Source: Chloroflexota bacterium
GTDB lineage: Bacteria; Chloroflexota; Anaerolineae; Anaerolineales; UBA11579
Direction of reading: 5' to 3'
DNA length: 64,000 nt
Assembly (NCBI GenBank): GCA_018662365.1
Contig: JABJGH010000053.1
Location: forward strand, 18,760-82,759
Shown here: one piece after another, positions 31,149 through 33,118 of the stretch
Position numbering within the stretch: position 1 is the stretch's first letter
How the letters are laid out: each line of letters opens with the position of its first letter
Notes under the pieces: model-generated
Told to the model about the DNA's origin: nothing
The model's database searches: none
What the model saw: only the letters and a program-made list of their open reading frames with translations
Translations under genes and position numbers: made by a program

Positions 31149-31310
31149 TTTTTACGGAAAAGGCAGCATAAGTTAGGTAAAATTCCTAAACGCTTAGTTT
31201 TAAACTCAATTGATGATTAATTTATTTTGGGCTAAATCGCTTATCTACTGATTTCAAAGCGCGGTCTAGGTATTCATTGAAAAAGTCGATCTCTACCAGC
31301 CAAACTTAGC

Positions 31311-31463
31311 CTATCTTTTTACCACAAGACGGCCCATCCGTAAAAACCGCCGAATATCTTGCATGCTATGCTCAAAACGAAGCAATTCCAAGAACCGCTC
31401 AACACCAATCTGCTGTCCTTCGGGATGGATTTCAGCTGTTATCCCCAAGTGTCGAAAGTAGAA
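31311..31463 (-). pseudogene. C-terminal remnant of an unidentified ORF
   Basis: Minus-strand open frame FYFRHLGITAEIHPEGQQIGVERFLELLRFEHSMQDIRRFLRMGRLVVKR ending in TAG; no start codon, in-frame TAA directly upstream, abuts the repeat copy at 31473. Confidence 0.45.
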
Positions 31464-31472
31464 TTAATAATG

Positions 31473-31545
31473 ATAGAGTTTCCGAAGCAAACTCTTAAAC
31501 GCAAAACCTGCTAATAGCAGGTTTTCTGTAGTACCCCTAAGGTGA
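31473..31545. repeat. Displaced copy of the tRNA-Glu-associated repeat unit
   Basis: gatagagtttccgaagcaaactcttaaacgcaaaacctgctaatagcaggttttctgtagtacccctaaggt nearly matches the unit at 32984-33055. Confidence 0.8.
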
Positions 31546-31617
31546 CAAACTCCAAACCACACCCTTCCCTAACATCAGGGGGAAATATTTGCGTGTTTTG
31601 TTCAACCAATGCTGTAA

Positions 31618-32553
31618 TTAACTAATCCGGTATAAATCCGTGCTGAGGTATTTCAACCCAGAGTCAATCATGAGTGTAACAACAGTCGCACCCTGACCAA
31701 GTTTTTCAGCTACTCTCAAGGCTGCCACGACATTCGCTCCGGAAGATGTACCTGCAAATAGAGCTTCCTCGCTAGCAAGACGTCTGGCCATTGCCTTGGC
31801 TTCCTCTGTAGTTACGCATAGGACCTCATCAACACTATTCGCATCCCATAGTGGAGGTGTAAACCCAATACCTATACCTTCGATATTGTGAGCTCCTGTT
31901 CCACCTCCAGATAGTATTGCGGACTCTGCTGGCTCAACAGCAAAGATCCTCGCAGATGGTTTTTTTTCTTTTAAGACTTTAGAGATGCCTCGGATCGAAG
32001 CAGCAGTACCTACACTTTGCACAAATGCATCCACCTGACCGTCAGTTTGCTTCCAGATCTCCTCCCCCAATGAATGATATCCGGCGATATGGTCATAATT
32101 ATTAAGTTGATCAGTCCAGTATGTATTGGTTTCATTGCTCATCCTGCGAGCGACCTCGATCATCTCCTTGATTAGCTTCTCTGTCGTTCCCCCACCCTCA
32201 CTTGGTACTAGCGTCAGTTCAGCCCCAAGGGCTTTCATGTGGTCGCGTTTTTCTATACTGAATGCATCAGAAGTCACGATTTTTAGTCTATAACCCTTAG
32301 CTGCACAAATAAGTCCAAGCGAAGTGCCTGTGCTTCCGCCAGTGTATTCGACCACTGTACCTCCAGGCGGCAGCCGTCCATCTTCTTCCGCTCGATAAAT
32401 CATCGATTGCGCCATTCTGTCTTTCATACTACCTGTAGGATTTGACCACTCTAGTTTGACGAATATGTTGGCCGAATTAGGAGGAACTACTTTCCGCAGT
32501 TGAATAATGGGTGTATTCCCTATTGCATGAAGAATGTCGTTTGCCACCAACAT
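31618..32553 (-). CDS. Cysteine synthase / PLP-dependent beta-family enzyme
   Basis: MLVANDILHAIGNTPIIQLRKV, NPTGSMKDRMA, EYTGGSTGTSLG, GIGIGFTPPLWD, GTSSGANVVAAL; start moved to internal ATG at 32553. Confidence 0.9.
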   Translation of the reverse strand: MLVANDILHAIGNTPIIQLRKVVPPNSANIFVKLEWSNPTGSMKDRMAQSMIYRAEEDGRLPPGGTVVEYTGGSTGTSLGLICAAKGYRLKIVTSDAFSIEKRDHMKALGAELTLVPSEGGGTTEKLIKEMIEVARRMSNETNTYWTDQLNNYDHIAGYHSLGEEIWKQTDGQVDAFVQSVGTAASIRGISKVLKEKKPSARIFAVEPAESAILSGGGTGAHNIEGIGIGFTPPLWDANSVDEVLCVTTEEAKAMARRLASEEALFAGTSSGANVVAALRVAEKLGQGATVVTLMIDSGLKYLSTDLYRIS

Positions 32554-32776
32554 TTGAAATCTCCTCTTGGTCAAGTTTGGTATATGCTAATAAAATTCCT
32601 AAACGCACCACTTGATGCTAAGCAACAGAATTACAAGATTTTCACCATTTTTTAAAAATTATACAGTAAATGCACCTGATAATATTACTGCTCTATTAGC
32701 AAACCGTCCAGTTTCCCTTTCTGATCAAAACTTATCATAGTAAAAAACCGCTCAATGATAATGAGCAGTTCCAGTT

Positions 32777-33044
32777 GTACCCTCACAGGTCACAAATCTA
32801 ACTAATAAAGATAGAGTTTCCGAAGCAAACTCTTAAAAAACCTGTTTTTTGTAAGTTTTATGCTGTACCCTCATGGGTCGCAAATCTAACTAATAAAGAC
32901 AGAGTTTCCGAAGCAAACTCTTAAAAAACCTGCTTTTTGCAAGTTTTATGCAGTACCCCCACAGGTCGCAAATCTAACTAATAAAGACAGAGTTTCCAAA
33001 GGAAACTCTTAAACAGAAAACCTGCTAATAGCAGGTTTTCTGTA
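32777..33044. repeat. Three tandem repeats (88, 88, 92 bp), each beginning with a tRNA-Glu 3'-end-like sequence
   Basis: Units at 32777-32864, 32865-32952, 32953-33044 start gtaccctcacaggtc / gtaccctcatgggtc / gtacccccacaggtc and share caaatctaactaataaagaYagagtttcc..aaactcttaaa; the next such sequence is the tRNA itself (gtacccccacggggagtcg, from 33045). Confidence 0.9.
33014..33042 (-). terminator. Intrinsic terminator-like hairpin downstream of tRNA-Glu
   Basis: Perfect 13-bp inverted repeat CAGAAAACCTGCT-AAT-AGCAGGTTTTCTG immediately 3' of the minus-strand tRNA. Confidence 0.65.
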
Positions 33045-33045
33045 G

Positions 33046-33118
33046 TACCCCCACGGGGAGTCGAACCCCGGTTTCAGCCTTGAGAGGGCTGCGTCCTAGG
33101 CCACTAGACGATGAGGGC
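33046..33118 (-). tRNA. tRNA-Glu (anticodon CTC)
   Basis: Reverse complement GCCCTCATCGTCTAGTGGCCTAGGACGCAGCCCTCTCAAGGCTGAAACCGGGGTTCGACTCCCCGTGGGGGTA folds as a cloverleaf: acceptor GCCCTCA/TGGGGGT, anticodon loop CTCTCAA, T-loop GTTCGAC; no encoded CCA. Confidence 0.95.

Follow-up and report, generated by a model that had tools for sequence, protein, structure and literature searches.

Tandem arrays of tRNA ends are known mainly from one locus of Escherichia coli, and in tycheposons and further tRNA-targeting elements that lack a local integrase, cargo is flanked by partial tRNA 3' ends. At the E. coli locus, tyrT/tyrV-rttR (rtT RNA, tpr), 3.1 units of 178 bp follow the tRNA in tandem and start inside its end; the comparison with this locus is based on the annotated E. 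coli record. Likeness to the array described here is also found in the ssrA islands of Dehalococcoides, in which the 3' end of a tRNA-like gene is repeated downstream and islands accrete in tandem, some of them without an integration module; a CcrB-like serine recombinase is described for these islands (PMC3146451). REP/BIME elements (PMC3733652), finally, are paired palindromes that are intergenic and often located just after genes.

The window, that is, the whole stretch of 64,000 nucleotides that was analysed, contains an array of related layout next to a tRNA-Glu(CUC) gene. Its components are as follows:

33045..33118, minus strand: intact tRNA-Glu, anticodon CTC (ARAGORN; Rfam RF00005, 57.5 bits).
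32953..33044, minus strand: unit U1, 92 bp, with hairpin 1 at 33013-33043, a TTTA linker, hairpin 2 at 32989-33009 and a tail ending GTGGGGGTAC.
32865..32952, minus strand: unit U2, 88 bp, of the same layout as U1, with a tail ending ATGAGGGTAC (TRF, alignment).
32777..32864, minus strand: unit U3, 88 bp, 93% identical to U2, with a decayed hairpin 1 (repeat search).
31440..31531, minus strand: unit U4, a diverged fourth copy past a cysK-like gene (repeat search, alignment).

U1 to U3 lie on the strand of the tRNA, directly 3' of it, and are contiguous from 33044 to 32777. The starts given for them in the earlier note (32777, 32865, 32953 and, last, 33045) were confirmed when the coordinates were checked, and TRF returns the same 88-bp period (32776-33013, 2.7 copies, 92% matches, score 406) for what is the sole TRF array of the 64-kb window. 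As in the E. coli tyrT control, the direct repeats start at the tRNA 3' end or within it, judged by TRF and coordinates. U4 was absent from the list of units in that note, and the more degraded end that it placed in front of the first unit (about 32743-32770) turned out to be a different hairpin (ACTGCTCA..TGAGCGGTTTTTT) and no unit. Each unit is composed, in this order, of hairpin 1, a TTTA-containing linker, hairpin 2 (AGAGTTT..AAACTCT), about 20 AT-rich nucleotides and an acceptor-stem-like tail. Hairpin 2 was considered as an integron attC-like site and set aside by eye. The mean column identity of the U1-U4 alignment is 87%; a 4-nt deletion in hairpin 1 is common to U2 and U3, and the hairpin-1 core is identical in U1 and U4, with the cysK-like gene between them. 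The dyad and hairpin described previously are real, U1 folding with a z-score of -5.6 against shuffles, and over U1-U3 the hairpin structure weakens with distance from the tRNA (U2, -2.35; U3, -0.65); for U4 the value is -2.62. U1 likely still yields a strong double-hairpin trailer, with U2 and U3 as passengers. In an Rfam scan of the array, the tRNA was the only match above the cut-off.

The tails were earlier read as a decayed tRNA terminus at the start of each unit. Resemblance to the tRNA acceptor end is confined to the last 10-12 nt; the T-arm part is weak, and the tails do not separate tRNA-Glu from tRNA-Arg. Shuffled tails that equalled the match to tRNA-Glu numbered, per 2000, 1 for U1, 8 for U2, 27 for U3 and 17 for U4, in tests that are not independent of each other because the units are homologous. 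For most tails, the match to tRNA-Arg genes of this genome is as good as that to tRNA-Glu or better. Derivation of the tails from tRNA-Glu is thus plausible by position, with a sequence that would fit tRNA-Arg equally.

Judged by these comparisons, the array is closest in form to E. coli tyrT-rttR and closest in integration history to the Dehalococcoides ssrA islands. From the former it differs in that the unit sequence is unrelated, the tRNA part comprises 10-12 nt only, the units are two-hairpin modules for which a product is not annotated, and the cysK-like gene divides the array. In the ssrA islands the repeats are spaced by gene-bearing islands, whereas those of the window measure 88-92 bp on a contig without a recombinase. 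Unlike REP/BIME, the module showed no conserved GTAG/CGTC tag, hairpin 1 is not conserved, copy number is low, a RAYT is not linked, and in the sister genus g9 the module is strongly associated with tRNAs. From tycheposons the window is set apart by the lack of a linked tyrosine recombinase or replication genes and by far smaller repeats. On these grounds, the array is regarded as a variant of a known phenomenon and not as a new system.

Beyond U3, the array is interrupted by a segment that bears on the integration history of the locus. The following features were found there:

32591..32606, strand not assigned: copy 2 of an exact 16-bp direct repeat (TAAAATTCCTAAACGC), lying immediately upstream of the cysK-like gene (repeat search).
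31618..32574, minus strand: cysteine-synthase-like gene (PALP), between U3 and U4 (Pfam PF00291, 4e-71; NCBIfam cysKM below cut-off).
31531..31554, minus strand: tRNA-end-like tail (..CCTTAGGGGTAC) closing the cysK segment (1 of 2000 shuffles equals its tRNA-Glu match).
31227..31367, minus strand: broken excisionase-type HTH gene remnant, beyond the distal tail of U4 (DNA homology to an intact ORF after tRNA-Arg(CCT)).
31178..31193, strand not assigned: exact 16-bp direct repeat TAAAATTCCTAAACGC, copy 1 (repeat search).

U4 and the cysK-like gene lie between the two direct repeats. A hint from the repeat search that the stretches after U3 and after U4 are homologous was rejected on testing, save for one exact 16-mer. 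The cysK-like segment is flanked by short tRNA-like tails of the same type as those of the units, and the best relatives of the gene in other genomes of the family are about 41% identical. Its G+C content is 46%, compared with 39% for the window; composition says little, since one neighbouring gene also reaches 44%. The HTH remnant aligns at the DNA level with the ORF after tRNA-Arg(CCT) of the same genome (score 105, shuffle maximum 61.5), and this ORF is excisionase-like (TIGR01764, E 0.00026, below curated cut-offs). An integrase beside the array was not found on the contig, and all five PF00589 genes of the genome lie on other contigs. The remnant past U4, together with its relative at tRNA-Arg(CCU), points to an old integration site; the array locus thus appears to have been used for integration in the past, and the cysK-like gene was probably left by elements inserted at the tRNA end. 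The tRNA-Arg(CCT) gene itself (locus L247, contig C51, 815-5287) is followed by the excisionase-like ORF and then by cysC, cysD and cysN; the genome that carries the cysK-like gene of the window probably has a second island linked to a tRNA here, with genes of sulfur assimilation.

Among the 47 tRNAs listed for this genome, the one for Glu(CUC) is alone in being adjoined by a TRF array; the tRNA-Tyr gene has a single hairpin pair of the same layout, and the hairpin occurs in the array and at one other site only. In relatives, arrays are present at other tRNA loci. The same array at every tRNA-Glu, which that note named as evidence against its reading, was not encountered: with strict matching, a search of 397 genomes of the class found the repeated tRNA-Glu end in 2, G048 and the present one. 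Arrays at tRNA-Glu are sporadic, and conservation of the window's array in relatives was not seen. Within 148 distinct tRNA loci, a sample biased by the fact that part of it was found via the hairpin, eight tRNAs have a TRF array with a period of at least 30 at no more than 50 nt from their end. Four further arrays, more distant from tRNAs, all lie within open frames; of the near ones, L111 and L133 are also open.

Where arrays do occur in relatives, their units may be of quite different sequence. In genome G005, of the same family, tRNA-Glu(CTC) is followed by six units of 125 bp, next to which come the gene of a membrane protein and then a 64-nt truncated tRNA-Glu, the latter 2.6 kb from the intact gene. 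In G048, of another family, the units after tRNA-Glu(TTC) measure 119-120 bp and include as much as 33 nt of clear tRNA end, and in G022 two 97-bp units follow tRNA-Glu(TTC). The units of G005 and G048 are unrelated in sequence to those of the window. In G048 (L035, 6600-7436), the T-loop TTCGAAT is changed to CCATGGT in most copies with the stem kept, and a second, older-looking scrap of a tRNA end lies inside every unit. The tRNA-Glu loci of G022 and G009 were tried as an occupied/empty pair and rejected, the downstream sequence being different. In G039, the ORF next to tRNA-Glu codes for a clear excisionase (TIGR01764, 1.3e-11), and about 6 kb on lies a large serine recombinase that is CcrB-like, as in the Dehalococcoides islands. 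On this evidence, tRNA-Glu is an integration site in this order.

In g9, the hairpin module alone was used for a search. A tRNA lies within about 115 nt of 24 of the 30 matches, the expectation from our own arithmetic being that less than 1% of the genome is so near a tRNA. Two-hairpin modules are located within a few nucleotides of tRNA-Glu, -Arg and -Leu genes, sometimes in tandem, and inverted modules adjoin tRNA 5' ends; in G017 the latter lie directly upstream of several tRNAs as a mirror of the downstream ones. G017 and G019 differ at the orthologous locus of tRNA-Glu(CTC), with one module in the former and two in the latter. By eye, the layout also occurs away from tRNAs in G006, G008 and G014, at several places directly after the stop codon of a protein gene. 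At three tRNA-Arg loci of g9 (L131, L139 and L133), TRF arrays with periods of 74, 79 and 36 bp, respectively, start 0-50 nt past the tRNA.

With slightly better than even confidence, the array is seen as a tandemly duplicated, decaying pre-tRNA trailer at an integration hotspot. The trailer of tRNA-Glu(CUC) would originally have held the two-hairpin module, which this family puts after tRNAs and some protein genes, and the segment from the last tRNA bases through the module would have been duplicated repeatedly, presumably as the short repeats of the tRNA end recombined or slipped during replication with assistance of the hairpins. An element with an excisionase-type gene would have inserted at the locus, where the cysK-like gene now divides the array between U3 and U4. 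Two processes appear to be superposed, namely the insertion of elements at the tRNA end and a separate tandem duplication of the trailer. The sequences show the anatomy of the array, the homology of its repeats, the excisionase-type remnant and the return of such arrays at tRNA ends in relatives and at E. coli tyrT; how the units were duplicated, in which order this happened and whether the cysK-like gene arrived as cargo is what we infer. Duplication is the preferred origin of the units: adjacent ones are nearly identical, lack genes and have a deletion in common, copy number differs between congeners, and E. coli tyrT is built on the same plan. The unrelated-unit arrays at tRNA-Glu of G005 (six of 125 bp), G048 and G022 (two of 97 bp) also count in its favour, as do the intact proximal hairpins, the outward decay over U1-U3, the position of the g9 modules at tRNAs and, for the overall reading, the excisionase-type remnant. 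A duplicated tRNA terminator or trailer, which the earlier note had offered as an alternative, fits the units better than the repeated integration it had put first. Its integration reading stands as far as the site is concerned, on the evidence of the excisionase-type remnant, the cysK tails, G039 and the truncated copy in G005; one integration per 88-bp unit is at odds with gene-free units, with PF00589 genes on other contigs, and with U2 and U3 as near-identical neighbours. Counted against duplication are the tails that fit tRNA-Arg as well as tRNA-Glu, the hairpin-1 core shared by U1 and U4 across the cysK segment, the unit-type tails that bound this segment, and the position of every unit edge at a tRNA end, which site-specific integration would predict and random duplication would not.

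The same edges and tails would be explained by accretion at an att site, in which every tail is a scar from an integration event of its own at the tRNA 3' end; the empty units would have lost their cargo, with the cysK-like gene as the one survivor. Deposition of each unit by an integrase is possible, and the excisionase-type pseudogene past U4, the tails around the cysK-like gene, the truncated tRNA-Glu with a cargo gene in G005, the recombination genes after tRNA-Glu in G039 and the tandem accretion of Dehalococcoides ssrA islands, some without integration modules (PMC3146451), all agree with it. Accretion as the origin of the array is nevertheless rather unlikely: the units have no coding content, neighbours are near-identical, the contig is without an integrase, and whole islands would have to shed their cargo at identical positions every time. 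Insertion of the two-hairpin unit several times as a small REP- or MITE-like mobile element targeting tRNA gene ends would account for the frequency of tRNAs near the g9 matches, for the inverted modules at tRNA 5' ends and for one tail being common to different tRNAs in g9. It is rated improbable, given that this genome has the hairpin only in the array and at one other site, that the sequence of hairpin 1 varies freely, unlike a transposon end, and that a transposase is not linked, the one Y1 gene of the genome being on another contig. Of similarly low probability is a minimal mobile cassette placed at tRNA ends by a trans-acting recombinase. Entering at the tRNA end time after time, cassettes with and without a gene would line up into arrays like those of integrons, the cysK segment being one that has a gene. 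Retention of the array for a function, as small RNAs or tandem terminators in the manner of rttR, is given hardly any credence; the units are on the strand of the tRNA, the U1 fold is strong and the small RNA RttR is annotated at the E. coli locus, which has this layout too, but the structure is decayed in U2 and U3, relatives have not conserved the array, and the tRNA alone exceeds the Rfam cut-off.

Arrays of tRNA ends thus recur in several lineages with unrelated units, and the two-hairpin module of one family adjoins tRNAs on both sides. Comparing close strains thereby becomes a way to test how such arrays originate. Were the units shown to be mobile, cassettes of about 90 bp would have their point of entry at tRNA ends.

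Several tRNA ends are directly followed by small ORFs, for which an identity as integrase C-termini reading across att was considered; the one ORF run gave no Pfam match. In several relatives (L011, L108, L028 and L047), translation in frame through the end of tRNA-Glu gives GAPxK.. immediately past it, and this stretch is possibly a shared att-flanking sequence.
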